Assembly: GCA_022661535.1 (NCBI GenBank)
Contig: JAKULF010000017.1
Location: 434,001-498,000, forward strand
Length of the DNA stretch: 64,000 nucleotides
Direction of reading: 5' to 3'
Source: Eutypa lata
Lineage: Eukaryota; Ascomycota; Sordariomycetes; Xylariales; Diatrypaceae
The notes beneath the pieces are model-generated. The model was not told the origin of the DNA and ran no database searches. It saw nothing but the letters and a program-made list of their open reading frames with translations. The position numbers were made by a program, and so were the translations under genes. Positions 8,596 to 39,218 of the stretch are shown one piece after another (positions within the stretch are counted from its first letter, which is position 1; every line of letters begins with the position of its first letter).

Positions 8596-8610
8596 TTAGC
8601 CGTATTAGCC
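8596..8610 (-). promoter_or_regulatory. tandem GGCTAA boxes (candidate XlnR/Xyr1 site)
   Basis: On the minus strand the sequence reads GGCTAATACGGCTAA: two GGCTAA cores separated by 3 bp, about 400 bp upstream of the CE15 ATG. XlnR/Xyr1-type Zn2Cys6 activators bind GGCTAA-like cores. Such short motifs also arise by chance, so this is only a candidate. Confidence 0.35.
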
Positions 8611-8887
8611 TATCTCACACCCAATTACGGAGCAGGTGATGTAACCTCACATCACGTAATGAAGGCGCGTGTAAAGTGCCAAGAATACCCATATTGGGGC
8701 GCTTGTTCTGGGCCAGACAGAGAAACCCAGCTTCGTGGATGGCTATTGGTTGGACAACGCCTTCATTTTTGGGACGAAAGGGCGAGTGATGTCGTAAATA
8801 GCAACCAAGGCAGAATACGACGAGCGGAACATAAAAGGACGATCCGGGATGTGGCTAATCTAGTTCCGTCGGTCTGGATGGGGCACT

Positions 8888-8894
8888 TATAAAA
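8888..8894 (+). promoter_or_regulatory. TATA box of the CE15 gene
   Basis: TATAAAA about 110 bp upstream of the CE15 ATG at 9006, followed by a pyrimidine-rich stretch. The position suits a highly inducible fungal secreted-enzyme gene. Confidence 0.5.
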
Positions 8895-9005
8895 CCGCCT
8901 TGCCCGCTCCATGGCTTGCGTGATCCACGATCGTCAACTGCTCGCCTCTTTGTCATAGCCGTTCCTCGAAATCTAACATAGTGTTTGTCGTCACGTCACG
9001 TCACC

Positions 9006-11591: not shown

Positions 11592-13093
11592 GATTTCGTT
11601 GCTGCTGTTTTTTGACTGATTACGTGGAGTATGACTCGGACCTATAGCTTTCAATACCTTCCCTTCTGAAGATAAGTAGCGACTGTGTCATACAGGACAA
11701 CCGATGGTAGGTCTTGGTATAGATATAGGCAGTACAATGTGCGGGGTCTCCCACAATGCCGTGGAGTAGTATGAGCTAGACATGATTTCTAATCATCAGT
11801 CATAATCACGTCATATGAGGCCATTCACCATAGTAAATGCAAAAAAATGTGCTTTAGAACCAAATAGCGCGATGGGGAGTTGTAAGAGGTTGGTAATTGC
11901 GAGGGCGATCGATAGATTCATGAATCTTATAGTCGGCAATAGTGGGATAGGTCAGCGAAGCCCCTGAATAGAGAGATTACTTAATACGTGCTAGTGCCCA
12001 AAATTCACCAGAAACTCCGAGTGATGGTATAATTCAATACTAAAGTCACATAGTCAAGCTATGGTAAACTCCTACGATTCTTAATCGCGCTATGAGGCTG
12101 ACCAGACGTAGAGGTGCTAAGACTATTCTCTTGAAGAGGAAATGTATTACAAATATTGGATCCATAAGCGCCTGGGATGTCTTTAGTCATGCTCGTCATA
12201 AAGTGCATCATATCAAGCAGAAGAACAAAAGACTCGAGGCATCATGGAGCTTATCGCCGGTAATTCAGAATGGGACGAATGTTTGTGCTCAATGTCACCG
12301 GATAGATAAAATGTGCATTTATAGTACACTGGAAGTATTACGCGATGATCGCCTCCTGATACTTGGCTGGAATTTGGGCATAATCGTCACACTACCTAGC
12401 AACATTACAGATACGTATGAACCCCAAGTGAAGGTAAAGAGCTATACTTAAGCACAAAATCAATGGAGATACTAAGCCACAGTATAATCTTACGAAGTCT
12501 ACGTAGCGTCTTTTGTCTTTGGCTTCATGTTGAGGGCAAATCTATGGTGGATATGCTGATGAATATTAGACGACGTCCTAACTCCGTCTCGTTTACTTCA
12601 TCCGGTGAGTATGGTTCCTTTTAAATACTGAAAATGATATTGTGAGTTGGTGTCCAGGAAATCAAACCGGGAAGAAAGTATTCAAGGGGTCGAGAAACGA
12701 ATACTGACCGCCCAAAAGATGATACTATGTACATCTGGGTGATTCTACACCGTATCTGACATGCCTAATTTTCTGCGTATCGCCTAGATGTATCCTGACT
12801 TCCTTTTTTATGTCTCCTGCAATGAAGATATATACCGAGTGGCACTGACCACCGATTCCTTTTTGCACTGTCTGCCCCTAGTCTAGTAGCTAGCTGCCAC
12901 CTAACTGCTTCGCCTATGGTTATTACTGCCTGGTTATCACCGCTACCACCTTCTTTCCTAGACCATAATAAGCTGTTTTGACCTTTGACCTGCGTTAACC
13001 TGACTTGACCTACTCAGCGACACTGTCTAGGTTTGTTCGACGAGGCTGCCACCACTAATGTACTAGGTCTCCCGCAACCTGGTGATTATTACG
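11592..13093. other. intergenic, no supported gene
   Basis: About 1.5 kb upstream of the NmrA-like gene. One ATG-initiated frame of 119 codons (12092-12451) is present, but it has no recognisable domain, signal peptide or splice context. It may be chance or an old relic. Base composition is normal up to the TIR at 13096, so RIP does not reach this flank. Confidence 0.4.
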
Positions 13094-17243: not shown

Positions 17244-19186
17244 ATGGCGGGACTCAATCTGCTTGGCGTGTCGCCGCACCTTTTTCTATTGGTATCCGTT
17301 ACCTATGTCTTGTATCTTGTCATTTACAGACTCTGTTTCCACCCATTGCGGAAGGTGCCCGGGCCATGGTTTGCAACCGTGACCTACTGGTATGAGTTCT
17401 ATTACGATGTCATCTGCGACGGGAACTACGTTAAGCAGTATCCGCGACTTCATGAAAAATACGGTTAGTTAAATGAGTTAGACTTCGGCGCTCTTTGGAA
17501 ACTTGGCTGATGGTTACTAGGACCAATTGTTAGAGTCAGCCCCGACCGGGTGCACGTTGACAATGTCGATTACTTCCGCGAGTGAGTTTAGACGTACCTA
17601 GGATCTTATATGAGATGTAGCTAAATAACAACTCCAGAGTCTACCGTCTCGGATCGAAGTATTATAAAGATCCGGACTACTATCCAAGAGGAGGTGGCGT
17701 GGAGAACTCCATAATCATGTTGATCGATCCCGAAGTACACAAAGACCGCTATGCCGTCGTCAAACCGTTGTTTTCAGCCAAGGGTGTCGAACCACTCGCA
17801 CCTGTGGCCTTGAAAAACATGTCGCGCTTGATGGAGAAGATGAAGGTATCCTTCGAAAAGGGGTCACCGGTGGATATGACCAGGCTTATCCGGCTTCTTA
17901 CGGTATGGATCAACTGCTCACGTTGTTTCACTGTGGTTTCCTGCTAACATGAGTCTCATAGATTGACACTATTATGGTACTCCTATTTGACAAGAACATG
18001 AACCTCCTCGAGTCAGAAGAGGAAGAGCCGCAATTCGCTGGCACAATGAAGATGTTTGCGGATAACTTCCTGGTGATGAAGCATTTTCCAATCCTGGCGA
18101 GGTTGTCGGTTATGATGCCTGAAAGCTTGGCTGATAAGCTCGTCCCTGGTTACGTACCGTTTCGTAAGGTAAGTTGACTCTAGGAAGCTCGACTAGGCGT
18201 GGGAAGACTCCGTTCCCGCTAACACGTTATCCAGCAAAGTTCGAAGTGGATCCATGATATCGAGAGCCGGCAGAAGCATGACAACCTTGATGCGGTTGAG
18301 GGTGGAAGAAGCACTTACTTCGATCTCCTCTTAAGCGCAAACAAGTCAAGGGGATATCGAGCTTTTAGCGAGGAAGTTCTCGTTGATGAAGCGCTGGCCA
18401 TGTGCTTCGCGGGAACAGACACCACGAGCTTCGCCCTCAGTCTTGGCACCTACCACCTCTTATCAAACCCGTCTAAGCTAAAGATACTGCGAGAAGAGCT
18501 CGATGCCGTTCCCGTCAATGCTAATGGAATGCTTGAATATCGTGACGTCCGCAACCTACCATATCTGGTAAGTGATAATCTTATGGAACCATTGATATAT
18601 TGATCGGACAATGCTTAATACTAACTCGTTTGCTCACAGACCGCTATTATCAAGGAGATCCTCAGGATTTCACCACCGGTCCCTGGAATTATTCCTCGTA
18701 GAGTCCCTGCGGGCGGTTCAACTGTTGCAGGTTATTATCTTGCCCCGGGAGTAAGAACGATACCTTTCATTTCTAGTTACGTTGTGACATCCCACTGACC
18801 GCGTCTCTCGCAGACCACCGTTTCGTCGTCCATTGGCATGATCACCCACGACCCCGCCCTATTTTCCGAGCCTGATACCTTCCTCCCGGAAAGATGGTTA
18901 GGAGATGAAAGCAAAGATCTAGAGAAATGGTTCCTTGTGTTTAGCAGGGGATCTCGAGGATGCTTGGGTCAAAAGTGAGTATCCGTGGATGTTATTAATA
19001 TATCTTCATTTGCTAACTGTTTGCAGCGTCGCCTTTCTCGAGTTCTACGTATGCTTCGCCAACCTGTTCAGGCGCTTCAACATGAGTTTATACAAAACTA
19101 ACGAGACTACTGTACAATGGAAGGAGAGCGCTGCGGCTCGGCTGTGTAATAATGTCAAAGTTACCGTTGATTCACTCAGAGAGTAG
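17244..19186 (+). CDS. cytochrome P450 monooxygenase, CYP58/trichodiene-oxygenase-like
   Basis: Heme-thiolate oxygenase, membrane-anchored by the N-terminal helix LFLLVSVTYVLYLVIYRLCF, followed by the proline hinge VPGPW. About seven introns are visible; splicing joins HEKYG to PIVRVSPDRVHVD (TACG|GTTAGT...TACTAG|GA). The I-helix is AGTDTTSFAL, the ExxR helix is KEILRIS, and the PERF-like segment is FLPERWLG. The heme loop is FSRGSRGCLGQN with the Cys ligand. The N-terminal block (KQYPRLHEKYGPIVRVSPDRVHV) is characteristic of trichodiene-oxygenase-like P450s in secondary metabolism. All key residues are intact, so it is probably functional. It lies about 4 kb from the Kex2-repeat precursor and may be the cluster oxygenase; membership is inferred from proximity only. 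Confidence 0.9.
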
Positions 19187-19630
19187 GTAGTCAAGGTAGA
19201 TAGAGAAGGACTTTTGAGCATTGGGTATAGTGTAAACAATTTCAGTAAATCATAAGTAAGGGCCTCTTCTGCAAAGCAATTACAGACACTGGATTCGTTG
19301 TTATCACGGTTATCATTCTTTGTCTAGGCAGTGTACCCCTTAATTATTTAGAAGGCGCCACGCTGGCACTAGTTCTATGTGGTCTTCTTTGTTCTCAATA
19401 GATATTGCGACCGGCAACCGTCCACATATCCTCGAACAAACGAGCACTTGTTTTGCGCTATCATTCATACAAGTTGCTTTGTTTTTTTACCATGAAATAT
19501 TTTAAATACCATTCTTGCCCATCATAATACAATTTTGGCGTCCGACATTCCACTAGTGCTTGACTCAGAGCACTCGCAGCTTTCGACACCTAGCTCCGAA
19601 ATATATACGTCAAAGCTGAACTTCGCCACA

Positions 19631-21394
19631 ATGGCCGAAACAACTGGAAAATCGTCTGTGGCGGAACAGCATGTAGTAAAGGGCTACAAATACAATAATG
19701 TTATGATTATGGACGAGGTAGAAGACCTGGAATACTACGAACCTGGAGGTCTTGCTCCGTTGGATGTCGGAGACACTATTGGCGGTAGATTTTATGTCTT
19801 CTGGAAGCTCGGCTACGGTGGCATCGCTACAGTTTGGCTATGTTGGGAGGAGGCCACGGAGCAATGGAGAGCCATTAAAGTGAATGCTGCGCGCTATTCC
19901 TCAGAAGACTGCCCGGACCTCGTAGCTATCCAACATATGAAGGAACAGGGTGTTAGCCGAGAGCAACTTGAAGCCAACCATATCATTATGCCATATGAGA
20001 CCTTCTGGGAAGAGACGCCCAATGGTAGGCATCTATGTTCGGTCCTACCAGTACTCGGGCCTAAGCTCATTGAATGGAGGTCGGAGGTGTTAAGTACGGA
20101 CACTGAGCGCGTGGACAATCTCTGCTATCAAGTTGTGGAGGGACTCAGCTTCATGCATAGCAAGGGACTATGTCATGGGGATTTCCGGCCCTCGAACATT
20201 CTGATGAAGCTGAAACCTGGCTGCTTTGATAACGTCTCAAGAGATGACATGTGGGAACTCCTAGGAGGGTACCTTCTCGAAACCGCAGACGTGTGGACGA
20301 CAACCAACGAAAGGAGCGAACACGCACCCAAAGAAGTGGTGACCTCAGCAGCGTGGCAACGTTTCCAAGAATTTGTCATGGATGATGTCGCCATTGTCGA
20401 CTTTGGAGAAGCGTACAAAGCCAGCGAGCCCCCAAAGGAGTTCGGAATACCGCCAGTTAATGCCAGCCCAGAAGTTATTTTCGAGAAAGGACAGGTTGGA
20501 TTTAGAAGTGATGTATGGTCCTTGGCTACAGCACTCCTCGAGGTTAGACTAGATAGGCACGGGCGTAATACGGCTCCCGACGCTATACGGTGCATGGAGC
20601 GTTTCATTGGTCCCGTCCCGCATTACTATCGGTCGGAGGCGAGGAAAATCCTGCTAGATGATGACTGGGATATTCCCGACGAGGAAGGCGACGAGGAAGA
20701 TAAAAGCTATGGTTCAGCGTCCAAGTCGCTACAGCCTCTTACAGGACCTCTCGATCTTCCCATTGATGACGAGGAGGAAAGAGACTTCAAGGCAACCGGT
20801 TTCACCCATCTACTTGAAAAGAGGCTAGGAACGGAGCAGCGAGCCTGGGGATCCGAGCCTGATCCAGACGATCCAACCGGTGAGGAACGGAGAGCAGCAC
20901 GGATCCGCTACCATTTGTCAAGAGACGAAGTTCTCAATTTCGCTGACCTTCTTAAACAAATGTTTAAGTATATGCCCGAAGAGAGGATAAGCGCTTCTCA
21001 GGCACTGTCCCATAGATGGTTCAGAAAGCAACATCATTCGAAGGTGAGTAATTTCCCGGGCTGTATATATCCCTAGTTATCTAGAACGTTTCGAAGGCCC
21101 TTTTTATATAAAAGGGACCTCTCATAGGAAACGGATCAGGGCTCCTGAACCATCATCAAGGTCTATAAAAAAAGATAAGGAAATAGCTGACCCGAGATGT
21201 TATAGTATGACCTGCTGCCATCTTTCATCTATTGGACGGCTCCGGCATTTGTTGCTCTCCTGGCATTCCTGCTTTGGTTCATGTGGAATCGATCCCGACA
21301 AGCATCGTTTGAGAAGTCCATGGCAGAACAGGGTTACATCCCGTGGACTAAGGCTTCTAAAGTGATAGTTTTTTACTTTCATGACTACATATAG
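19631..21394 (+). CDS. SRPK-like Ser/Thr protein kinase, possibly tail-anchored
   Basis: The kinase begins at ATG 19631 (MAETTGKSS); frame upstream is open but has no ATG. N-lobe: VGDTIGGRFYVFWKLGYGGIATVWL, with the Lys in WRAIKVNAA. The catalytic loop is CHGDFRPSNIL (HGD in place of HRD, common in fungal SRPK-like kinases). DFG is present as VDFGEA. An acidic insert (DDDWDIPDEEGDEEDKS) precedes the C-lobe end. Exon 1 ends at 21043 before GTGAGT. A 162-nt intron with a CTGAC branch site and TTATAG acceptor joins in frame to 21206-21394, which encodes a strongly hydrophobic helix (FIYWTAPAFVALLAFLLWFMW) and a short tail. If the intron is skipped, the kinase stops 11 codons later. The kinase call is firm; the tail anchor is inferred. 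Confidence 0.82.
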
Positions 21395-23051
21395 CTGCTC
21401 TTTACCTATTTTCGAATACCGATAGATGGGATTCATAGTAGCCCACATATGAACATACTAAACATATATGAAGCTTAATCGTTATAAGACAATATAGCAT
21501 GCTACCCCCTTTAGTTAAGCTTGCCTGCCTTGTCTTGATAAATCTCTCATTTGAAGTAATTATTTTTGCAGCGAAGGACCCCAAGGCTATGTAGCCGGGC
21601 ATAAATTACGATACATGCAAGACGGCAGAGAAGCTGCGTAAACCTTTGACACTGTTAACCTATTTTCATACGAGAAGAAAAATAGGGAGAGACAAGGCGG
21701 ATGCTTGTAGTTATGTTTGCGGTAGTCCTTGGTTTCTCTTTATGTATGCCTTACTAAGGGTTACTTTTCTTTATTCTTTAAGGACCAAGAAAGGCAACTA
21801 GATATAGCATCATATAGGATTCAGCTCAACTCCTTGATTCGAACTACCAATGGCAGTCCATTATATAGATACATAAGATAATATGCTTAAACTATCTAGC
21901 GCACCCAAATATGAACATCCAAATTCGAGACGAGCCCCCAATCGTGGTCGGCGCCAGGAGAACTCATTTAAGTACTCGCCGCCGATTCCATTAGAGACCG
22001 ACACATCTCTCCAGTGGGATAAGGGGGATCCAATGCCTCATGGAGGTCCGTTACCCTTTGAACATGGGACAGAAAAAGTAGTCAAAGCTATTAGAAGTTA
22101 TGGGTCGGGAAACCGTGAAAGCCCAAGAGTTTGTCCTCCATAAATTCTACCTATATGGTTAATAAATGGGCAGTAGGGAAGATTAACAATGCTAGGTTAT
22201 GTGGAGCAACGGGGAGGTCCTTGATCTAGAAGATTATAAGCCTGAAGTCCTCGAAGCTCATAATAGTTTCGCCTCCCATATTGCCAAAGAATTGGGGTTT
22301 ACTCATATATGGATCCGGTAACACAGAATACCCACTTCGTTTTCTTATAATAACTAGCTAATGGTATGAAGTAAAAAGGTCCATGGCGTAGAGACAAGGC
22401 GCAACCAGACAACCGGTATGAGGACCAGTGGGACAAAAAAATCACAAGATCATATAACAGTCTTCCTAGGTATAAAACAGGACTGGATAATTGTTGGAGG
22501 ACATATTTTCATGCTTCGCTCGGATGGCGATCAGACACTAGAGCTCATGCCAGAAGATCAAATGAAGCCAGACGAAAGAACGGGCAGGCGCCGGCGTGTT
22601 AAAGAACTATGGAAATGGGATGAGAAGGGTACAGTCCAACAACAGCATAGAAACAAACAGCTGAAAGGTATGAGTTGGCGGAAATAATTGACTATAGAAC
22701 GTTATATAAGGGGGAGGGGAAACATGTACGTTGATTAGTGTTGCAAGTATGATTAGATATAAGGAACATGATCCAAAATTGACTTGGAGATGGAAACAAA
22801 AAGGGATGTAAGCATAGGGGAAATAGTATATACTCCCATATACCCCCATAGTACATAACATTTCCCACAAATAACAGTATTACAGCTATGCGGAGAGACT
22901 CCTTTGTCCCAAGTCAATATATCTCCGTTGTCTCCTATTCACCATGTGCCCCACAACAATAGATCTATTTAAGAATAAGCTTTTACTGTCTATCAACCAA
23001 AAGATAACCCATGCTCTGCTCTAACTACTTACTAGATTATCGTCCGGAACA
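21395..23051. pseudogene. gene-poor stretch with ORF fragments of a possible degraded gene
   Basis: Two plus-strand fragments look protein-like. 21883-22143 (86 codons, Arg/Pro-rich, including PMPHGGPLPFEHGTEK) and 22418-22687 (89 codons; WIIVGGHIFML...PEDQMKPDERTG...VKELWKWDEKG) lie in different frames, with stops between them. The second fragment resembles the C-terminus of a family of fungal hypothetical proteins ending in a charged helix. The fragments could be exons of one gene or remnants of a decayed one. I could not build a convincing splice model. The rest of the stretch shows nothing. Confidence 0.25.
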
Positions 23052-23261
23052 CTAATCCTCTCGAACCAATTCTCGTTTACCCCAGGCATTAGCGCGGTAT
23101 ATGGCGTCCTGTTCAACTGACTCTCGTTTTCCCCAAGCACCCCTGCGGTACAGGGAACTCTCCTCGGCTGGGCCTCGCTTAGATGTATCCTCCTTTGGTG
23201 CAGGAGCGCTCAAAACTGAACATGCGGAGGCAAGCACAACGAGAATCGTATAGGTCCTCAT
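23052..23261 (-). CDS. secreted Kex2-processed repeat peptide precursor (candidate dikaritin-type RiPP precursor)
   Basis: Single-exon gene of 69 aa. A clear signal peptide (MRTYTILVVLASACSVLSA) is followed by a short Pro/acidic spacer and a first dibasic site (SKR). Two repeat units then end in the same core pattern, SLYRRGAWG-KR and AIYRANAWG-KR, separated by an acidic Glu/Asp spacer. Cleavage after Lys-Arg in the secretory pathway would release two similar peptides with one Tyr and one Trp each and a Gly before KR. This leader/spacer/core/KR plan is that of dikaritin precursors (ustiloxin, phomopsin, asperipin type) and also of fungal alpha-pheromone precursors. The usual pheromone Cys pair (WC...GQ.CW) is absent. 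UstYa genes 1.2 and 9.8 kb away favour the RiPP reading. The final product is unknown. Confidence 0.75.
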   Translation of the reverse strand: MRTYTILVVLASACSVLSAPAPKEDTSKRGPAEESSLYRRGAWGKRESVEQDAIYRANAWGKRELVRED

Positions 23262-24414
23262 AGTTACAAAGGAACTAGGAGTAATTCAAGTTGATGTTTT
23301 GATTGTGATTCTTGTTTATTCGAGCTGATCGTTGACTGTAGGATACAGAGCTTTGTCTGATTGATAATCGAAGAGAGGGTATCGAGCGTACTTTATACCT
23401 GTATCTCTACTTTCATCTCGGCTAGGATAGGCACTGCAGCTCTTGTATATTCTTGAGGATAAACTTAAGTGCATTGCGGAAGGTGCAAGTATAAGGTTAG
23501 AGGCATCGGACTGGCCACCTGATTGGCAAACAGGCCGGGGATCGTTTCTTAGTTATCTCATTATTGCTGCACATGCAAGGCATCTTGACCTTGAAATCTC
23601 GAAAAAGCTAATTGCATTAGACTAAATAGCTATTTGTACAAGAAATCAAGCCTTCTTTGGAAGTACCTAGCATTACCAACCCACTACATATCCATCACGA
23701 CTATACCTAGGTACGAGCAATATACACCTATGTTACTACCTAAAACTTAACCAGCACTTCTAACATAATATATATTATATGTAAAAGAAATTGGGGGGGG
23801 GGGGGCTTGCACCCGCCCCTCTCCCCCCCTTTTCTTCCCCTGGCCGGAATCTTAACCTTAACCTTGACACTCAACCTTAACTAACTAACCTTGACCCTAA
23901 CTGCGTTGCGCGCCGATGGCAGTATTTAGGCTCAAGAACTGGCCGTAAAATGGGATGCAAACCCGCCAAAAAAGGTTAATGTTTGGTGCAATTAGGATTA
24001 GGTTTTTCTTTAAAACCTCTTGTGTGACATTGTTCATTCCGATCCTTGTGAGGTTAGAGACTCATCACCGTTTGAGTAATTATCACGTTTACTAAAGCAT
24101 ATTGTTTACGAAAAGAAGATTGCATTTGTCTGATAATATTCACCGTATCATTATGTAATGGATGATAAGAAGTTGTCGTATGATACGTCGTTGCATCTCA
24201 CTCTTGCTTTAGTTACGCTTATCAGGACTTATACGAAAACTCCTCGTCTCCTTCCTTGCAGCGGGCAATTGGATTATAACGATGCAGGTGACATTTTAAA
24301 CTTATTTTATCATTCTTGTAGCTTATTATAGAAGCGACATAAAGTCTTCCAAATTTCATTATCTTGCCCTTATTATACAAGGAGTTCAATAGGGAGGTTC
24401 CCCTTTCCTCCAAA
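23262..24414. other. intergenic between precursor and UstYa gene, with G-tract and telomere-like repeats
   Basis: The precursor and UstYa relic are transcribed divergently from this 1.15-kb stretch. It holds a 13-G run at about 23792-23804, a C-rich segment, and at about 23848-23900 irregular CTTAACC/CCTTGACC units reminiscent of degenerate CCCTAA telomere repeats. A 60-codon frame (23443-23625) shows no protein character. Confidence 0.45.
23392..23397 (-). promoter_or_regulatory. TATA box of the precursor gene
   Basis: Minus-strand TATAAA about 130 bp upstream of the precursor ATG, followed by an A/C-rich leader (TCACAATCAAAACATCAAC) typical of strongly expressed fungal genes. This supports the short ORF as a real gene. 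Confidence 0.5.
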
Positions 24415-25115
24415 ATGTCAGATAACCTCAGCGAACCACTAATAGAGAAAGATGAGGCTGAATGGCTCGAGTCAAAACGTACCACACGGAGAAGAGGCTA
24501 TATTGCTTGGACTGTACTACAAGCTGTCACGACATGCTTAATTCCCACAGCCTACTATCTGGGATATCAGAAAGGAGTCGAAGTAGTTCCGAACTTGTCA
24601 ACACACCGTAGGTGGCTCTTACTCCGACTAAAAGGCTTACTAACAGCATATAACTAGCAATTTCACACGAGGGTTACAGTATGAGACTGCAGCAACTTGA
24701 CGACGACTTCGATATCAAAGATCCTGCGAACATGAAGTATAAAGGGCTCCCCAGGCCTGAACTCGACGAGGCATGGGACAATCTTATCAACCATATGAAC
24801 ATTCGCGTTCAACCAGAAGAGGCAAGACAATCAAACTTCACTTCCGTGGAACTCAATGATGGCTCGGGTGATTTATTCGGAATGCCTGCTGTATTCCACA
24901 GCCTCCACTGTTTGAAAACGCTACGCCGCATTCAATTCCCAGAAAGTTATCCAGACAGCTGGGAGAGGTACAAGCCGCCATTTCCCGGCGGTATCAACGA
25001 CCACGTCGACCACTGTATTGATAAGTACGTCATTTTTAATTCGAAGAGAAGTGTCGGTTGGAACTGGCTGACACGTTTTTGAAAGTCTTCGTCAAGCTGT
25101 AATGTGTCAAGGCAA

Positions 25116-25123
25116 CCTATCAC
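25116..25123 (+). repeat. 8-bp target site duplication, left copy
   Basis: CCTATCAC immediately left of the TIR; pairs with CCTATTAC at 28407-28414, with one CpA-to-TpA difference. Confidence 0.8.
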
Positions 25124-28100
25124 CAGGCTGGCAAGTAACGCAATATACGTTACCGGCCGGCTATGTAAATTGCATTACTTATAATGCATTGGCACCTTTG
25201 ATTTGGTAAATTACGATAAACGAAAATGAATATATTATATAATATATTATATTCGTTATATAAATAAAAAATATAATAAATATTAAAATAAAATTATAAA
25301 TAAATTATAAATAAATATTATAATTTATTTTTTAATATTTTAATTTATTTTAATTATTTATTTTTATAAATTTTAATTTTGTTTTTAAAATAATTTTTTT
25401 TATATTTATTAATTCGTTAATTTATATTATTATTTATTTATATAATTCGTCGTCGTTTATCTTTATAATTTTAATAACTTTATTTTTTTAAATTTATAAT
25501 ATAAATATATAATTAAATTCGATAATTAAGTTAATTTTATATTAAAATTAAAAAATTTAATACATTTTAATTATTATAATATTTAAACGAAATTAAAATT
25601 TAATAATTATTTTTTAATTATCGAAAATAAACGTTTATATTTAATAAATATTAATTATATCGTAAAAAAATTAAAAATTATTTTTATAAATTATAAATAT
25701 TTAAATATTTTATCTTTTTAATATTATATTAAATTAATAACGCATTTATTTATAAATTTTAAATAATTATATTAAATAACGTATTTATTAAAATCGTTAT
25801 TAAATATATATTCGTTTAAATCGAAAAAATTATTAATAATTTCGTAATTTTATTTTTATTTATTAAAATATTTATTAAAAACGTTATTATATTTTTTTAA
25901 CTTATTAATTAATAATATAATTTTTTTTATAATTTTTCTTTTATAATATATATTATATTAAACTTATTTAATTATATCTTTTATTTTATTTATTTAATTA
26001 TTACGATTTAATTAAGTTTTTTTAAATTAACGTTATTAAAATATAAAATATAATATAATTATAACGTAATAAATAAATATTTTATTAAATTAATTATAAT
26101 ATTTATTTAATTTTAATTAAATTATATTAATATTAATTAAAAAAATTAAAAAAATTAAAAACTTTATTAATTTTTAATTTATAATTTTTAAACTTTATTA
26201 ATAATTATTTAAAAATAAAAAATATATTTTATATATTATTATAAAAATTAATAAATTCGTTTTTCTTTTTATAACGTTAATTATTTTTTTCGAATCTTTT
26301 AATAATATATTTAAATAAAATTAATATTTTTACCGTAATATTTAAAACGTATTAATTATAATTCGTTAATTAATAATTATTTTTAAAAATAATAATTTTT
26401 TTTTACGTTTTTTTTAATTAATTTAATTTTAATATATTTTCGTTAATTTATTTATTTTAAAAATTATAAATAAATAATCGAAATATAAAATAAAAAATAA
26501 TTATACGCTTAATTATATAATATTAAAAAAATTATTATATTTCGTTATTAATAATAATATTAAATAATTTAAAAAAGAATTATATATAAAATACTTTTTA
26601 AATAAATTATATTTAATATAATTTATTAATTAATTTATTAAAATAATAAATATAAATTATAATATTATAAAACTTATTAATTAACTTTTTTTTAATTATA
26701 ATTTATATTTAACTTTATTTATAATATTATAATTTTTAATTTTAACTTTAAATATTTTTACGTTTTTATTAAATAAAAACGTTTTTATAATAAAATTAAA
26801 AATATAATTAAAATAATAATTATATTAAAATTTATTATTAAACTTTAAAATATCGTTAATATATTATATAATTATATCGTTAATTATTATATTATTAAAA
26901 ACGAAATAATTAATTTTATTATAAAAAATATTAAAAAAATTAATAATATAAATAACTTTTTCGTTTATATTTTTACTTAAATAACGTAAAATAACTATTA
27001 TAATATTAAAAATTAATTTAAAATTATAATTACGACTTTATAACGTTATATATAAATCGACAAAACGATATTTATAACTTAAACTTTTTTTTCTTCGTAT
27101 AATAATAATATATTTATTTATTATATAAAATTATTTAATATTATAATAATAACTTTTAATAATTTTAAAATAATTTTAATAAAATAATTATTCGAAATTT
27201 TAAAAAAAATAATAAATATTATATAATAAATAACGATTATTTAATCGTTATTTATTAAAAACAAAATATATTAAATTAAAATAAATTTTTAAAATTTAAA
27301 TAATGATTTTTTTATTTATATTAAAAAATTAACAATTAAAATATTAATTATAATATAAAATATATAAATAATTTAATTTTAAATATAAAAATTTAAAAAT
27401 TTAAAAATTTAATATAATTTTTTTTTTAATAATTTAAAAATAATAATTTTAATTAATAATTTAATTAAATAATAACTTTTTAAACTTTTATTTATTAAAG
27501 CTTTTAATAAAAATATTCGTAATTATTTATTCGTAAGAGTTTTTAAAATTTAATTTAAAATAATTAATAAAATTTAATAATTAAAAAAGTTTTCAAAATA
27601 ATATATAAAATTTAATTTTTTTTATTTTATTAACTTCGTTAAACCTTTTAACGTAAATATAATATAAGATTTAAATAAAGATTTAATATAATTTTAAATG
27701 CTTTAATAAATAAAATTATAAATCGAATATAAATTACGTTTAAAATACGATTTATATACTTATAATTAATCGTTACTTTTAAATATATTATATTTAAACT
27801 TTTAACTTTAAGCTTTATTAAACTTAATCTTTTATAAATAAAAATAACTTAAAAATTTTATAAATAAATAAATTTCGAAAATAAAATTATTTAAAATAAA
27901 AATTAAAAAAAAAATTAATATAAATATAATATTTAATTTTTAATTATTAAAAATAACATTATTAATATTAAAGTTTAAAGTTATTATAAAATAAAATAAT
28001 TTAAATAAAATATTAAAATAAATAATTAAAATTTTTATTAATATTTATTAATTTATTAATATAAATAAATAAATAAATTAATAAATAAATTATAACTTAT

Positions 28101-28406
28101 TTAAACTTTAAACTTTTAAAATATCGAAAATTTCTTAATTATTTTTATAATCTTTTATTTTTAATTCGTATTTATAATTATAATATTAATTATTTATTTA
28201 TAACATTATATAAATATATAATCTTTATTAATAATAAATTAATTAAATTACATTTAATATTTATATATAAACATTAAGGTTAATATTAATACATTACGTT
28301 ATAATAACTATAATATCGAAAAAAATTAATATTAATAAATTACTTAAAGTAATAAATACCAATCGATATTCATACGGTGACTTATGTTACGTTACTTGCC
28401 AGCCTG
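25124..28406. mobile_element. hAT-like DNA transposon, RIP-degraded, inserted in a UstYa gene
   Basis: Bounded by perfect 17-bp TIRs starting CAGGCTGGCAAG: left 25124-25140, right 28390-28406 inverted. Flanking 8-bp sequences are CCTATCAC (25116-25123) and CCTATTAC (28407-28414). They differ by one C-to-T in a CpA context, as RIP would produce. An 8-bp duplication plus CAG-type termini indicates the hAT superfamily. The first ~85 bp keep normal composition; the rest is A+T with isolated CpG, and no transposase frame survives. The 3.28-kb length suits an autonomous hAT element. Confidence 0.85.
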
Positions 28407-28414
28407 CCTATTAC
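28407..28414 (+). repeat. 8-bp target site duplication, right copy
   Basis: CCTATTAC immediately right of the inverted TIR; matches the left copy at seven of eight bases. Confidence 0.8.
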
Positions 28415-28590
28415 TATATAGCTATACATGGCTCCCTGGCAAGGAAAAGCCAATGCCTATAGCTGGAATGGATCATATCTGCATTGATTGGGATAACATG
28501 ATGAAATGGGCCGCTGGACGCAGCTTTTCGCTCGATGACAAGTTGTTAACACATCCCGATTCAAGTAAGTACTCGATCATCAGTAAATAG

Positions 28591-29463
28591 GTTTATTGGA
28601 CAGCAGCTAAATTAAACTAGATAGCCCGTGGTCCCCGGATGGATAAGATTTCGTCCGTACCACTAAGGCGTTGATATAGGCATTACTCATGATACATATG
28701 TAAATTAATGCACATGATTTCTGGGCACAATTAAGTTTATGCTATATAAATAACTGTTGATATTATTGATAAAAAGTTAGTTAGATCCTAATATTTAAAG
28801 AATCTGGTGGCTGGATTCAGAAGGCGGTCTGTCCATGAGTCTTAGTGACAAGGCAGATATATTGAGCCCAAGAAGGATAGTAATGTAAGTATGCAGAGTA
28901 TTACGACCTGGGCATCATATACAGTAGGCCACTTTTTATTGTACTAATCCAACGTTTACGAAGTTCAAGTTAGGCTGAGAATACTTAGAAGCACAGGAGA
29001 TCCTTTAATTATGCGGATATTTCAAGTTCTGCTTATTGATGTCGTTCCCCCCACTTGTCCTATTGTACTCAGTACCACTACTTAACGTTACTCTAAAGAC
29101 TCGTAAGGATTTAAACGTAACTTCAATAAGCATGCAACTAGGTGGGCCACCCCCTGGAAAGAATAATCACAAGTGCAATGCTAGCCCAGACCGATGAAGT
29201 GAATTTTCCCATATCAACCCATCCTCCTGTTCCTTAGAATTACGACCGCTGTACGGAAATTACAAGTCATTCTGCCTTGAGAATTAAAAACAATATAATT
29301 CTATGAGAACATAAACTTTTCAGATATCCATAAGAAACTATCCCCCTATTCATATGGACATGATATAGAAGACGTACGTTGGGGCTCCTATCTTTTTGAT
29401 CTGTATCAGTTACTATAATCGCAACATCTATATCACATCTGCAGTCGTAACATCTGAGGTTAA
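28591..29463. other. intergenic, no gene seen
   Basis: About 0.9 kb between the end of the broken UstYa gene and the 3' end of the receptor gene. Composition is normal to AT-leaning. No supported feature. Confidence 0.5.
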
Positions 29464-30865
29464 TTAGAGTGCTTGCACATATCGTAAATCTTTCATGACG
29501 TATGTTTCAGTTCTGAATTTGGCCTGCTGATTGTGGGGGTCGGTTATAGGAAGAACTAGTTCCGAGTTGCTGAAACTGTTGTTATTTTCTGTGTAGGCGA
29601 TGTTGTAGCCATGGCTGACGTGAATGGTATTTTCGCTGGTCTTATGGAATTGTGGTCTTGAATTGTAACAGAACAGGGACTTCGCAATATCGACAAAGGT
29701 ATCCCAGGAATACCCCCTAAAGAGGATCTGAAGGGATGGTAGACAGGCAGCGAGGATACTAACGCCGCATTCAACCACCCCCCAGTATAACCATTCAGTT
29801 ATAACAACTATTTGACTTGGAATCAACCTCGGAGCAGGTACGTATAATGGAAATACTTACAGACTGGATCATCTGCTGGGTTATAACCCCCTATCGAGAT
29901 TCTTGCCATTATAAAAAGCCTTGCCAAAGATGTTGCCGTCGCGCTAGGTAATGTAAGCACGTGGGTATTGTAAACTAAGATTAAATTGGGACGTACACGA
30001 TCCCTAGTAAGAAGACAGCGCTAATGGCGACCTTCTTACCTGTAGACAGGTTCAACCGCCAAATCTAGCCATGTCATGGTTAGTAACGGCCAAGCTATCT
30101 GTAGAAAGGATAGACTGACCCATGGGACCGGAAGACAGATGATGATAACATCTAAAGCGAAGTCCGTAATGCTGAAAGAAAGCGACCGATCCATACTTCC
30201 TTGGCAGTGACTGACGAGATCCATGGTTGAGCCCCATATTGCGAAAAAGTTGGTCTTGCAGACGAATAAAAACATGACCAAATACGCTGCCGACCATAAA
30301 GAAACTAGTACTATCAAGGTAACGAGTATTCTGTGAGTGGCAGATTTGCTGTTAACAGCAAACACTCGCTTATAAAAAAACAAGAAACTTGCTTTGACGC
30401 ATCCCAGGGCGACTGATGCTATCAAATTACAAGCCCACCTGATCTAGCTTCGGCTTAACTAGTGTGAACTAATACAAGATAGCATGACGAATAGGCACTT
30501 ACCTTGTACGCCATGGAAATCTGCTTATCTGCTTAGTCTTCATCTCGAGGGGGTTGCCGGCGAAATCGGAGGGGATCTGAGTGCGATAACCTATCACTTG
30601 CTGAGACACCCCGTAAATCACTGACACTCTAATCCCAACGGTTAGTATCTATTGCACCTAGTCAATTTTTATGCTTGGAATGCACGGGATGAAGTGACCT
30701 CACTGTAGCAGGAAGAATCAGCCAGTCATCTGGCCCCAAACGCTGCTTTTGCTTCTTTCGAGCCCGCAGCCTCAAAATGAGGGCAGCGATGTCTATGACA
30801 CGTAGCATGGCAGCTGCAGCAATAGTATGGCCTGCTGTGTGGTAGTATTTCTGATCGGCGTCCAT
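29464..30865 (-). CDS. PTH11-like integral membrane protein (rhodopsin-domain family)
   Basis: Seven-TM fungal receptor-like protein in several exons. The N-terminus MDADQKYYHTAGHTIAAAAMLRVIDIAALILRLRAR is followed by RLGPDDWLILPAT, the family's hallmark DDW before TM2. Next come YGVSQQVIGYRTQIPSDFAGNP and the ALGCVKASFLFFYKRVF helix. Then TM segments LVTLIVLVSLWSAAYLVMFLFVC and FALDVIIICLPVPWVSLSF follow, and after splicing KKVAISAVFLLGIV and WLYWGVVECGVSILAACLPSL. The cytosolic tail ends at 29464. Introns are inferred at about 30480-30425, 30060-30030, 29990-29940 and 29860-29825. Such proteins sense surface or host cues, or are accessory membrane proteins of metabolite clusters. Reading order is complete, with no stop inside exons. 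Exact exon borders are approximate. Confidence 0.78.
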
Positions 30866-33041
30866 TGTTACGAGAAATTACTACAGAGACGATTGGATAT
30901 TCGGAAGACTGCGGCGAGGGAAGGGTGGAATTGCTAATTCAAGTTGGGTGGAGGCAATGAAGAACGAACTAGAAAATATAAAACTCTTGGATGAGATAAG
31001 GAACACGTTTGATAATATGACTGTCTAAAATGTCAATAGGTTAAACAAGACATTCGACACTACTTCTTATTGTTTCAGTTGTAGGCGTGGGTGGCTTATT
31101 GTCAGCGAAAAAGTCGGTATCACATATATGCATAAGATAGGGGTTTAAGGCTTGTTGGGTTTCCTGCTTTGAGCTGAAATTTTGCTTACGGCGATCCAGA
31201 AGCTATGCTAAGCTGCATTGCATTGTCAGGAAGCAACCCATAGAAGTATGATAATGCGAGTGGTCGCATCCCAACAAGGCATGTTAATGATGATTGCCTG
31301 GCTCCAAAGCAGGATAAGCAAAGTGATGTCGTGTGGTGGCATTCTGACTAATTACGGAATATGCATGGCGCTTAGTGAGTTCGGTATGGCTTGCCTCTGG
31401 CGTAATACAAATACCACACTATAAGACCGCAGCATTGCCGTGATTCTATCCTTCATCGTCCAGCTGCTACACACTTTTTCTCTTTCCATAAGCACATGTT
31501 GTGCCTAGGAAGTGGACAGTAAGGCAGATTTCTGCTTACTTCTTCTACTTGGCACGTGAAGTGACCATCTATTCGTCCATGTCAAATGCAGTGCCACTAA
31601 ATTTATTTCCATACTACTACCGTAAATATTCCAGCCTGACACAGATGCGTTGCATTGTGACACCTCAGCTAATGCCACAATGCGTGTCCAACCAATACCC
31701 AAACCATCACCCATGCTGAATATACTATATTCAGGCTGTGATAATTGATCATGTTGCGAGTTGGTGACTCTCCCTGTTTTACCACTTCGCTGGATAGAAC
31801 CTTTTTACTTTCGTCAAGCGATACTAGAAGGCAATTTTAACCAATGAAGGCTCTATCATGGATATTTACCTAAATGAGGCTGGGGGCCGTTTGATTCAAA
31901 GCTCCCAGCTCTCCACTTTGGTAGCACCTCGAGGTCTAACGTCGCCTTCGGTAATAACAGTGTCACTATTGGCCAAATGTTACAGGCTACTGACATAAGA
32001 TGGTCACTGTGTGCTCCCATACTATATAACGAATGTCTGTGCAATATATAGAATGAATATCTGCTATTCCTCAGTAGATGTGTGTCCCGGCCCCCTATAC
32101 TAACCCCTTCCACGAGCCACGAAAGCAAAAACGTGGTACAAGTTGCCGTCTCTTTCATGATTGCATGTATACAGTGGATGGACCTCAACCATCTCCTAAA
32201 ACACCCGCGCCACGCCCTCCACACCCTCAGGCTGTACCGCCTCGCTGTCAGCGGATCGGTAGACTTGAACAGGCTCCCCAGGAGACAGCTGCGTATTTCG
32301 TGTGGCTATAAACAATTAGCATGCGACACTACAATCATGTTTTAGGGATGCATGCCTTGTGGCAGAGCCAACCCTGGGCAAGCGGCAGCGGCAAAGACTG
32401 CAAGGGAAAGGCTGAAGAAGCGCATTTTGAACGTCGGGTATAGTTTCAAGATGGATGGATCGGAATATATCGTGTCCTCGTATATTGTAACTAGGCTTTG
32501 GTCAAATCTGTGCTGAGATTTCGTGCCTAGTTGATACTTCGACGGTTTTTGGAATTCTTTGCGTTCTTATAGTCCTCTGCATTTTCTTTTTTCTAATGCA
32601 CTGTGCGGGGAAATTCGTCCTCGCATAGGTGTGACACCCCTACGTTGACCTCTTGACAAGTCACCTTACATATCATCCGCGATGAAACCTTACACGACTG
32701 ATATATTGCATATATGACGGTAGGCTGGCTCTCTAAATTCAAGGATGATCTGCTCTATTAAAAGCAACTTTTAAATGAATTTTCGGAGAGGCGGTGAGTG
32801 GATGACGTTCTATATTCGCGCAGTGGTTGATAGAGCCTTGCGTAGGTTATATGTCTCCTGGTCGGCATCCCCAAGCCCCCCAGACTTGATTATTTGACGC
32901 AAGTCCCCCACAAGTAAGACCAGCCGAACTTTTTTTTTGTGTGGATTAGAAAGTTCCATCCTGCTCGACATTCCGTACCTTCGTAGCCTTCTCCTGAAAA
33001 CGTTGGTCTCTGTTTCGGGTACGCTGTACTCCGCAAAGGAA
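30866..33041. other. intergenic, no supported gene
   Basis: About 2.2 kb between two divergently oriented genes (receptor and second UstYa). Several frames of 68-122 codons overlap one another on both strands (e.g. 31856-32224, 32082-32345), without domain motifs or splice logic. They look like chance ORFs or old relics. Confidence 0.4.
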
Positions 33042-34077
33042 ATGAAGCTCGATAACGAGGCCTCAGCCAGAGGCAGTACCTCTATTGATTGCGAAGAATC
33101 TATGCAGTTATTGGGTACTCTCTCTACCTCCGCCTCTACCAGAGACTATAGAAAACTTCATATTCTGATTGGAGTGTATACCTTCGCACTACATCTTATC
33201 GTATTGCTCCTTTTACTAGTGATGGAGAGAGGTCAAGCTAGTCCAGATATTGGCATGATCCCAACTGAGAGGCGAACTTGGTGTAAGTCGGGTGGTATGA
33301 AGTCCAAGTCCTCTTCCGCTACTGATATACCCTTCAGCTCCGGTCCATGACTTCATTGAATACGAAGTTAATGGAGAACATGCCACAAACCATACTGTGT
33401 ACAGCAAGTATTCAGGGCCTCCCTCGACAGAGCAAGAGAAAGCATGGCAGGAACTAATCAGGCGTAAGTAATTCTCTTTTCGCCACTGCTCTAAAAGCAC
33501 TAACGTCGTCCATAGCTGTATATTTTAACGCGAGTTGCGAGGAGCTTGAGAGAGCCGGGGAGACGATAGAGGATGCTGCTCAGTTAACGCAGGGGGGCTT
33601 CTTGGCTGGCATCGGAGTTTACCATGAACTCCATTGCTTAGTAAGTGCACAAGTATTGCTATCTTCAAAATGCCGATGGAACATCTTGATTAAAGACTGT
33701 CTAGCGCCAATTACGGTATTATATATACAAAGACAGATATTATCCGGGCATCGATAGGGATCAAGAAGCGTATCTGCAAGGACACCTTGGTATGGACCCA
33801 GAGTGTTTAACCCAACTGAAGGATTGCAACTGCAAGTGCTTACAACTAACTGGTCACAGATCATTGTCTGGAGAGTCTCCGGTTGACGATAATGTGCTAC
33901 AGTAATCCCAGTTTTTACTCGTTTGTATGGGACAAGCCAACAGCAAAAAACCCCTCGACGAAATCCAACTCGAAATCAGTCTGCGTAAAATGGAGTAGTG
34001 TAGAGAATTGGGGTCTATCCAGAATGGTTTCGACTGATCCAGATTTGCGTCGGCCTCCAAACAATCGTCTTTCTTAG
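33042..34077 (+). CDS. UstYa/DUF3328-family RiPP oxidase, intact
   Basis: Five exons (33042-33282, 33338-33463, 33516-33640, 33705-33789, 33860-34077) give exactly 265 codons, with all junctions in phase. The N-terminal cytosolic segment and TM helix (LHILIGVYTFALHLIVLLLLLVM) precede the lumenal domain. The first HxxHC is HELHC (end of exon 3). The linker YIYKDRYYPGIDRDQEAYLQ is typical of the family. The second motif DHC is created across the last intron (CTTG|GTATGG...CACAG|AT), with a CTAAC branch site. ESLRLTIMC and YSFVWDKP...KSVCVKWSSVENW form the C-terminal block. UstYa proteins act on Kex2-released core peptides in the secretory pathway, forming ether or C-C crosslinks. This intact copy contrasts with the broken one 8 kb upstream. 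Confidence 0.9.
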
Positions 34078-34997: not shown

Positions 34998-37610
34998 ATG
35001 TTGAGCTTCAATGTGGGGGCCAGGACTGCCAACAGATTATTGGCAGTCCCCAGGATATTTCCCGGCAGCAAAAGGATGAGTAGCACAAGGATATGGGACC
35101 TTATACGAACTTTAAACAAGAATTGGGACTCTTCAACATCTTCTGATGTTACTTTACGCTCTCGAGAATCCAAGTACTCTAAGCTACTGGACTTGATGAA
35201 CGGTGATGCTGCCGATGAGCAGATGGGCGCCGGGCCTCCACATCTAGAACTGGTTCAAAGTTTCAAGAATGCCCCGATATTTACAGCAGCAGTTGAGAAA
35301 TTCGTGCATTCCGCGTTGCCGACGGATGAGAAGACTTCGGAGCTAGTGCCCAAGTATGGATTGATTGGTTCGCGTTGCGATCTCGGTAGCAAGACAGCTT
35401 CCAAGGAGGACCGCCTCGTCTTGGGTAATTTTGGAATTCCTTGGTCTGCTTTTATCTGCGGATCCCGTGGATCAGGAAAGAGCCACACACTACGCTGTCT
35501 CCTGGAGAATGCTCTCCTTGCTAACAATAACGCCGGTGATCCGCTATCTGGCATGGTTATGCACTTCGACAACTACACAAGCCGGAACACTGCCCAGGTT
35601 TGCGAGGCGGCTTACCTGTGCTCCTCTGGTATCCCGGTGACCGTCCTTGTGTCGCCGTCCAACCTATTGGAGATGAAACGCTTGTATGGCAACCTGCCCG
35701 GTCTGAGGCCAGATGACCCGAAGCCCAAAGTCGTCCCCTTGTATCTCGAAGAGCATCAGCTGGATGTTTTTAGAATACTGAAGTTTCTTGGCATCATCGA
35801 TGGAAATAAATCTCCTCCATTATACATGACAGTCGTGAGGGAAATCGTCCGTGAGATGAGCATGGAAGGAACAGCTTTCACCTACAAGAAGTTCCGCGAG
35901 CGTCTTGCCGATGTGGAATGGTTTGGAAAATATCGGCGAGGCGAACAAGAGACGAGTCTGAACGTCCGGCTTCAGTTTTTGGATAGCTTTATTGCTGCCT
36001 CAGAGTCACGAATCATGCAGTCGATGGGACCGACCCAGTCACCGGAGAATATCTGGGCGTTTAAGCCGGGCTCCTTGACCATCGTCGATCTGAATGACCC
36101 TATTATCCACTCCGAGGAGGCCTGCGCTTTGTTCTCGGTCTGCCTTTCCATTTTCGTCAAGAACCAGCAACAGTGCGGGCGGATCGTGGCGTTAGACGAG
36201 GCAAACAAGGTAACTTTATATACCCAATCAATATATAGCTTGTTACGGACCTAGGAGTATTAGAGTGATGGAGAGAGAGAGAGAGAGAGCTAACCAGCCC
36301 GTGACTAGTTTCTACGCTACTCTGTCGAGGCGAACCTTCTCACGAAAGAACTAATTTCTATCATCCGCCACCCAGAGAACACTGGGACACACGTGGTAGT
36401 TGCGGCGGAGAAACTTGCGCTTTCACCGAAGTTAATCTCCCTGGCGAACGCGACCTTCGTCCACCGGCTGCCCTCCCCAAACTCGTACTCGATTCTCATG
36501 GAACACCTCTCCGGGGCCAACAGGAAAGACTCCGACAGAGACGATAAGTCGCTCTTCGCCAGGATTACTGCTCTCCCCACAGGGCGGGCGCTTCTATTCT
36601 GCCCGACGGCGCAGATGGATGTCGTTGACAGTCTGCCTGCCCCTAGTGATGGCAATGGCGGCGGAACCAGGCGGGTCAGTCAGCTCAACGACGGCTATAT
36701 CGATATCAATATTCGCAAACACTTGAACGTGGACCGCGGGAAGAGCATCCTGGATACAGATGAGTCCACCAAAATCCATACGCCACAGCAGCCGGTGTCC
36801 AATGATGTAGCAATGTTCTCCTTGGGGCAGGCTTCAAAAGACGACGTGGGAACCAAAGAGAAGAGGAAACAGTGGCGATCAAGAGAACCAGAGATAATAT
36901 CGACGGTTTGCAGACTGAACCAAAACACACCCTACGACGTCCAGACTTCTGCGGGCAAAGAAGAGTTCTGGGACGCCATTGGCACTAGGTCTCCCCTCAT
37001 TCAAGGCAGCATCGAAGGGAAAGAACGCCATGCCCTTTTTCAGGACATTTCTGAGGGGGCATATCAACTTGCGTATGAAAAGTTCAAAAAATATGGCTGG
37101 CGGAACTTTTCATCGCTACTGAAACCGATACGGCAGCAGTTTTTCAACGAACTAGAGCGCAAATGCGGGCTGAAATTTCAATCAATACAGAGAAACGAGA
37201 AGTTCAACGGTATTTTGACCTCGTATATTGATAACTATTTGGTAAGATGCTTTCAGTGTGATGAATATCTGTCTAACTTATCCTTGTGCCCCTTCTGGTC
37301 CTGACCGGCAGCAAGTAAATTTTGACTAATTTGTTTCTTTTTGTTACAGTGGCAACTTTATGAAGCTCGCCGAAAAGAGAGCAAAGGAGTAGCGGAGGAG
37401 ACGCAAATAAGGAATGAAGAGTTGCAAAGAATGTTTAGGGAAACTAACAGGCATAGGGATGTGCACGATAGACAACAACAACAACAACAACTTGGATCTC
37501 AAGACATTGCGCTGTCTAAGGCGATAGAGAAGGCTCGAAATACTAACAGCACCCGTTTTCCGTCAAGGAGACCACCATTAGCTGGAAACAAAGACCGTCG
37601 TAGGCCATAA
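34998..37610 (+). CDS. HerA/VirB4-like P-loop ATPase, fungal-specific, about 801 aa
   Basis: Three exons (34998-36209, 36309-37241, 37350-37610), both introns phase 0. The frame is open further upstream without an ATG; a second candidate start lies at 35076 (MSSTRIWDL). Walker A is FICGSRGSGKSHTLRCLLE, and Walker B GRIVALDEANK lies just before intron 1. FLRYSVEANLLTKELISIIRHPENTGTHVVVAAE and the following sensor-like segment resemble the HerA-type ordering of motifs. The C-terminal part holds EFWDAIGTRSPLIQG and a charged coiled coil with a Gln run (RQQQQQQLG). Related hypothetical ATPases occur in many filamentous fungi; their role is not known to me. Intron 1 holds a GA microsatellite. Nucleotide binding is well supported, the biological role is not. 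Confidence 0.75.
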
Positions 37611-38602: not shown

Positions 38603-39218
38603 ATGGGTACGGTCAAAATCCATGCTAGAACCTCTTTTGCTGTATCAACATTGACTTATTTTATCTACAGATTCTAATGGAAAGAAGGAGGATGAGGGCA
38701 CGAGTGCCAGCTCAAGAGAGCAAGCACTCCAAGAAATTCAACGATGTAGGGAACAAGGGCGCAGCTTGGGCGAAATATGGCACAACGCAGTTACGAAGCT
38801 GAAAAATTCCGATCCCAACGACGGTCACGCGAAGCTGACCAGGCAGATAGTGGCAAGTGAGTTCTAAGCGATGGCCCTAATATGGCCTCACTATTTTAAT
38901 CTGACAATGCAATACTTAGGGATGCTACTAGACGGAATCGAGGATGTCGCCGTGCCGATAATCATAAAGAAGTACAGAGCCAAAGCCGAAGCCAAAGCCA
39001 GCCCCAAGTCCCCTGTCGCAGCGGGAGCGACGCCAAAGAGCCCGGATGTCAGCACCCCCTCTCCTACCGCAAGACGATCGAGCCTCAACCCAGCCGCGGG
39101 CAGCTTCACTCCTCGTAGCGCCTCTGGTGGTACGACATTCAACCCCACAGCTGCGGATTTTAGCCCTTGGATTCAGCCCAAGAAGCTGGATCGGAAAGAA
39201 GACCATGGGAAGGAATGA
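38603..39218 (+). CDS. small hypothetical protein, 162 aa
   Basis: Three exons: 38603-38606 (just ATGG), 38671-38856 and 38920-39218. Introns of 64 and 63 nt (GTACGG..CTACAG, GTGAGT..ACTTAG) keep phase exactly. The N-terminal half is a hydrophilic helical segment (REQALQEIQRCREQGRSLGEIWHNAVTKL). The C-terminal half is Ala/Ser/Pro-rich with SPKS/PTARRSS motifs that look like phosphorylation sites, ending WIQPKKLDRKEDHGKE. A mini first exon of four coding bases is unusual but common enough in fungi. I do not recognise the family. The phase match and composition support a real gene. Confidence 0.55.

Follow-up and report, generated by a model that had tools for sequence, protein, structure and literature searches.

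We identified a candidate peptide biosynthesis locus within a window of 64,000 nucleotides from the fungus Eutypa lata (contig JAKULF010000017.1, here C13, positions 434001-498000; the genome comprises 54.5 Mb in 29 contigs). An intact gene for a short, putatively secreted precursor lies there beside a UstYa oxidase gene (U1) that is interrupted by a transposon. As judged from sequence, the two probably represent a dikaritin-type pair for a ribosomally synthesized and post-translationally modified peptide (RiPP), in which the oxidation (cross-linking) step is likely to have been lost from the sequenced strain because the transposon lies inside U1. The precursor would have been the substrate of U1, and its product would now be either unmodified or not made. 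An earlier note on this stretch had proposed a dikaritin-like cluster in which the precursor, two UstYa genes and a cytochrome P450 gene act together; a repeat precursor adjoining a UstYa gene is indeed present, whereas a working four-gene cluster is unsupported in this strain. The features that define the pair, with the evidence used for each, are as follows.

23055..23261, minus strand: precursor gene, 69 aa (open reading frame (ORF) 23052-23261); from the ORF, a repeat detector and comparison of the repeats.
23124..23174, minus strand: repeat 1, GPAEESSLYRRGAWGKR, by direct sequence reading; it has an internal RR, a possible extra Kex2 site.
23073..23123, minus strand: repeat 2, ESVEQDAIYRANAWGKR, by direct sequence reading.
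24415..25123, plus strand: 5' part of U1 (exons 24415-24607, 24658-25024, and 25086 on); from a gene model, PF11807 and alignment with the relative P0003.
25116..25123, no strand: 8-bp target duplication, left copy; from comparison of the flanks.
25124..28406, no strand: hAT-like transposon, 3,283 bp, about 8% GC; from inverted repeats, the target duplication and a composition like that of repeat-induced point mutation (RIP).
28407..28414, no strand: 8-bp target duplication, right copy, with one C/T difference from the left; from comparison of the flanks.
28415..28566, plus strand: separated C-terminal coding piece of U1 (match from about 28405); from alignment with P0003 and identity to P0002.

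U1 is not an intact gene and is split by the transposon in its third modelled exon. Its 5' part encodes a hydrophobic helix and both HxxHC motifs (HSLHC and HVDHC), and matches the UstYa profile PF11807 (cut-off 25 bits) at 99.2 bits over profile positions 49-186 of 220, with the C-terminal end missing. Read as it stands, the gene specifies 227 aa and stops at about 25208. Comparison of P0003, a protein of Xylariaceae sp. FL0594, with the genome yields three colinear pieces at the U1 locus (residues 1-66 match at 39%, 67-189 at 74%, and 199-252 at 52%), the last of which falls about 3.4 kb downstream of the preceding ones. The best of these pieces scores 221 bits and the best other genomic place 77 bits (32%), and this search found no comparable second U1 relative in the assembly. 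On the far side of the element, ORF 28384-28587 has 60% identity to P0002 over 50 aa. The nearest named relatives of U1, and those of the second UstYa gene (U2) described below, include Xylariales species. The internal transcribed spacer (ITS) region of the genome also looks xylarialean.

The separated piece corresponds to a C-terminal block of about 50 conserved residues that is found in six of ten close U1 relatives (P0002, P0003, P0004, P0006, P0009, and P0011). In an alignment of 42 of the 118 proteins found as relatives of U1 or U2, its residues are nearly invariant: W207 is kept in all 42 (in the truncated record P0010 it is the final residue), P214 in 41, C224 in 41, W227 in 39, W233 in 41, and R237 in 40. 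A structure model of P0003 (mean predicted local distance difference test score, pLDDT, 74.5) renders the lost region as two strands and a helix with block means of 71-92, from which it is predicted to belong to the fold. A sequence search found no solved UstYa structure, and a fold search with the P0003 model gave 13 matches, the best at E 2.7. The 227-aa read-through product would presumably be inactive, with some residual function of the 5' part possible because it retains both HxxHC motifs.

By its sequence features the insert is a RIP-degraded, hAT-like transposon. Its two ends (25124-25140 and 28390-28406) consist of the same 17-mer in opposite orientations, without a mismatch; this 17-mer has two matches in the window at up to three mismatches, versus 0.06 expected, and 64 occurrences in the genome when one mismatch is allowed (the two in the window included), versus none for a reversed control. 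The flanks of the window element read CCTATCAC and CCTATTAC. Our sample of 17 other apparent element pairs takes in 34 of the 64; with the two ends in the window set aside, 28 lie outside it. In 13 of the 17 pairs, as in the window copy, the element is bordered by an 8-bp duplication with no more than one mismatch; the remaining four (L035, L038, L039, and L044) have 3-8 mismatches in their 8-bp flanks. Mean identity of the 8-bp flanks is 0.79 over the 17 pairs, compared with 0.29 for shuffled flanks and 0.10-0.32 for other lengths (2 to 10). An 8-bp target duplication and short inverted ends, which are traits of the hAT family, fit the pattern of the U1 insert. Two of the 13 pairs with a duplication, L042 on contig C11 and L043 on C6, have identical flanks in reverse orientation and are therefore counted as one event; their flanks suggest a duplicated stretch shared by the two contigs.

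Dinucleotide ratios were computed for three long and four short copies of this family in addition to the window copy. Inside the three long copies and the window copy, GC is 6-12% and the ratios are of RIP type; such ratios are absent from neighbouring genes, from both flanks of U1 and from the four short copies tested (of 14). Across the family (for example L032-L048), the 14 short copies (377-742 bp) have 29-48% GC and the three long ones (2.9-5.1 kb) 7-12%, as if RIP in this family depended on length. The occurrence of many short copies alongside longer ones is a further likeness to the hAT superfamily. A difference is that the long copies here are RIP-degraded; L048 has no frame of at least 100 aa and hence no legible transposase. 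An AT-rich island upstream of the P450 gene (13050-16150, 9% GC) also has RIP-type composition; it was considered as a second copy of the U1 element and rejected, the inverted end being absent there. A literature search for transposon-broken ustiloxin-type clusters found no such record.

The precursor gene is divergent from U1, with 1,153 bp between them, and its frame is intact although U1 is split. The encoded N-terminus is hydrophobic (about aa 1-19) and reads as a putative endoplasmic reticulum (ER) signal by a crude hydrophobicity rule and by eye. Three KR sites follow, enclosing two similar 17-aa units that each end AWG-KR, so that both the 69-aa precursor with two KR-bounded cores and the divergent UstYa gene 1.15 kb away are as the earlier note had described them. 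Tyr-containing cores between Kex2 (KR) sites are a dikaritin feature, represented here by two units. The repeats share 13 same-residue positions in register and use different synonymous codons at six of these, as would be expected if the protein sequence is kept. The tail of the precursor, ELVRED (23055-23072), resembles the opening of a repeat unit (ESVEQD), which suggests that a third unit once began there and was lost.

Two repeat detectors were used, one that combines the repeat rule with a signal rule (crude hydrophobicity) and was designed with this precursor in mind, and a looser one without a signal-peptide rule. The precursor is the sole match of the former in the window, and 60 simulated 64-kb windows gave none; the latter, on simulated sequence, averages 0.025 hits per 64 kb. 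The precursor has a single match in the genome, namely itself, with no further copy. A plasmid search with it returned four chance-level matches (E 8-10), and viral contigs gave pattern matches only, with no confirmed relative of the precursor or of the second exon of U1. The core pattern Tyr...Ala-Trp-Gly, which the earlier note had not recognized from ustiloxin, phomopsin, asperipin or epichloecyclin precursors, was likewise not found in two surveys of repeat genes as far as their main texts go, and a full-text literature search for the core-end sequences found nothing on fungi, as judged by title and the start of the abstract.

The precursor-UstYa pairing looks real on sequence grounds. There are 37 UstYa profile hits in the genome, grouped into 19 loci, and the adjacency of precursor and U1 is unlikely to arise by chance because a UstYa locus within 1.2 kb is expected about 0.001 times per precursor. 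The looser detector was run on 10-kb stretches at 16 of the 18 other UstYa loci and over 5 kb at a seventeenth (L065); the locus on C24 and half of the cluster on C6 lie outside the scan. It returned hits at five of the 16, three of which we judged to be Kex2-repeat frames: L049 (DYN[T/R]LG-KR), L050 (YSIIVYSIG-KR), and L064 (YYFYFS-KR). L065 carries repeats of DSDDVWLW-KK, along with overlapping and arginine-rich frames that are also detected. By our own judgement, then, Kex2-repeat frames occur at four of the 17 other scanned UstYa loci, versus the simulated rate given above. Signal-like first exons were recognized, by eye, in L049 and L050 only; both have acidic spacers and cores ending G-KR, like the precursor in the window, and the spacer and core of L050, EQDTYSIIVYSIG-KR, is by eye similar in build to EQDAIYRANAWG-KR in the window. 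The four loci, all on other contigs, are likely candidate RiPP loci of their own.

Such pairings have precedent. According to the main text of PMC7329392, DUF3328 (UstYa) genes lie near 22% of Kex2-repeat genes, most often directly adjoining, and repeats of genes so paired contain Tyr more often (65.6% versus 38.2%). The same text reports that no annotated yeast alpha-factor gene has a DUF3328 neighbour and that only three annotated fungal pheromone genes do. Ustiloxin-like clusters are described from Hypoxylaceae (PMC8403587). The locus resembles those of the dikaritins ustiloxin, phomopsin and asperipin-2a in its predicted secreted precursor, its KR-bounded Tyr repeats and its adjoining UstYa gene. 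It differs from them in having only two repeats, in a core that ends Ala-Trp-Gly and is not of the Y-x-I-x type, and in an adjoining UstYa gene that is transposon-interrupted, the intact U2 being 9.8 kb off. It also resembles the Kex2-processed repeat proteins (KEPs) of PMC7329392 and PMC6339444, as these are presented in their main texts, in a signal-like N-terminus and dibasic-bounded repeats.

Two further genes had been assigned to the proposed cluster, and their features were largely borne out.

33042..34077, plus strand: U2, UstYa gene, 264 aa, full length (exons 33042-33282, 33338-33463, 33516-33640, 33705-33789, and 33860-34077); from a gene model and PF11807.
17244..19186, plus strand: cytochrome P450 gene, multi-exon; from PF00067 and the heme motif.

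U2 sits 9.8 kb from the precursor, the distance previously given, and matches PF11807 at 128.7 bits over profile positions 7-216; with HELHC and HLDHC it carries the two HxxHC motifs that had been noted in each UstYa protein. Both genes are UstYa genes by profile, with U1 split between 25124 and 28406. U2 has 101 relatives at E 0.001 over many genera, among them four with cyclochlorotine-O or cctO-type source names (P0026, P0068, P0077, and P0088), to which it is 41-54% identical, so that it is CctO-like by those source names. The P450 gene lies 3.9 kb from the precursor on the side opposite U1 and U2, in agreement with the roughly 4 kb stated earlier. One of its exons scores 54.4 bits against PF00067, and the heme motif FSRGSRGCLG lies at about 18940; its model is open through six introns, and the best-scoring exon chain skips the open heme segment. 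A P450 and a second UstYa gene also occur in the neighbourhood of some dikaritin clusters. The ustiloxin cluster reportedly includes a P450.

A kinase gene (19631-21076) separates the P450 gene from the precursor, and a fungal-rhodopsin-type gene (pieces 29467-29856 and 30039-30443, one of them over the cut-off) separates U1 from U2. Ten further frames near the precursor and U1 gave no match over the cut-off to family profiles; weak hits below it were HNH at 12068-12448 and PAM2 at 38868-39215. Elsewhere in the window, an AA9-type polysaccharide monooxygenase frame lies beside a fungal glucuronoyl esterase gene (6868-10193), a neighbourhood of wood-decay type, and a 418-aa ORF (34998-36251) has a P-loop by eye and weak below-cut-off matches of HerA/DUF87-like and ORC-CDC6-like kinds.

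The precursor could instead encode a secreted linear (signalling) peptide of the ordinary kind, processed by Kex2, with a UstYa neighbour by chance. Its intact frame beside a broken U1 would suit such a peptide, and by the main-text figures of PMC7329392 about 78% of Kex2-repeat genes are without a DUF3328 neighbour. The U1 subfamily is moreover unlike the repeat-linked UstYa frames of L049 and L050, which are only 25-30% identical to U1 and U2; their first motif is HQIHC or HQVHC, compared with HSLHC and HELHC in U1 and U2, and the link of the U1 subfamily to Kex2 repeats is weakened because of this difference. We nevertheless regard a chance neighbour as unlikely, given the small expected frequency of so close a UstYa locus, the retention of Tyr in the repeats, and a spacer and core layout that by eye is like that of the UstYa-linked L050. 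Several other observations weigh, like the subfamily difference, against a dikaritin-type pair. The detector control consisted of simulated sequence and included no real genomic stretches away from UstYa genes. The looser detector is not specific by itself, since it also picks two arginine-rich frames in the window (9130-9537, plus strand, and 48927-49460, minus strand), and two of its hits at other UstYa loci were dropped, L056 being arginine-rich and L063 poly-lysine. The protein database holds the precursor only in its own cluster (three member sequences, 10 contigs). With two repeats, the precursor fails the definitions of both KEP surveys as given in their main texts, since PMC7329392 requires of a KEP three or more tandem repeats, each 8 aa or longer and set between Kex2 sites, and PMC6339444 likewise demands at least three. 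Tyrosinase (PF00264) has 23 hits in the genome and none on contig C13, a further difference from dikaritins; the main text of PMC7329392 describes tyrosinase as needed for ustiloxin and phomopsin and not as a general dikaritin requirement. As to U1 itself, the record of P0010 (Colletotrichum truncatum, 202 aa) also has no C-terminal block, and P0005 (the window's own protein), P0007 and P0008, each a single-frame piece, stop before it.

A larger cluster, in which the precursor, U1, U2 and the P450 act together and U2 or a shortened U1 suffices for oxidation, is in our estimation very unlikely. U2 is full length, the 5' part of U1 retains both HxxHC motifs, and repeat genes with DUF3328 neighbours average 1.7 of them, with five for phomopsin, in the main text of PMC7329392. 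Against this stand the broken U1 without its C-terminal block, the intervening kinase and rhodopsin-type genes, and the breadth of the U2 subfamily with its cctO-type members. In Thozetella, U2 seems not to travel with U1, because the U1 relative is on a contig of 913,486 and the U2 relative on another of 317,649. The earlier claim that the four genes act together is accordingly not upheld, and membership of U2 and the P450 in the pathway is unsupported. Least probable of all is that U1 still works, either because splicing removes the transposon like a long intron or because the shortened protein is active. Neither part of U1 shows a stop or frameshift, which implies that the break is recent or that a truncated protein has been kept. 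Splice-like GT and AG lie within the two inverted ends, and the short P0010 record could be a parallel for a shortened protein. However, an intron of 3.3 kb and 8% GC would be far longer than the other modelled U1 introns (50 and 61 bp), and escape by way of such an intron is unlikely because splicing at the end GT and AG leaves 23 extra bases (by hand count), a number not divisible by three. The six near-invariant residues of the C-terminal block would be missing from the read-through product.

For the dikaritin-type pair that we favour, the named families suggest how the ancestral pathway may have run. The precursor would enter the ER and, once in the Golgi, be cleaved by Kex2 after KR to free two cores ending ...Y-R-x-x-A-W-G. 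Membrane-anchored and facing the lumen, the UstYa oxidase U1 would then oxidize Tyr, perhaps linking it to Trp or to a neighbour, and exopeptidase trimming of the cores would come last. Entry of the element into U1 would abolish the oxidation step in this strain.

A genome-mining match of this kind may seem complete by its motifs while the gene for the key enzyme is split by a transposon. The locus adds a core type, Tyr...Ala-Trp-Gly, that our literature searches did not find, on a two-repeat precursor of a kind that the repeat surveys, by the definitions in their main texts, would miss, and the genome holds several likely UstYa and repeat-peptide pairs. A bolder possibility, which we consider quite unlikely, is that a RiPP pathway is here losing its chemistry: with the oxidase gone, the fungus would now secrete bare linear Tyr...Ala-Trp-Gly peptides. 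If true, evolution here would have run from cyclic to linear, opposite to the direction proposed for Kex2 repeat peptides, and the strain would be a natural knock-out to compare with relatives that retain the oxidase. Should U1 prove intact in other strains or in sister species, the locus would offer a natural test, with and without the oxidase, of UstYa chemistry on a secreted peptide.

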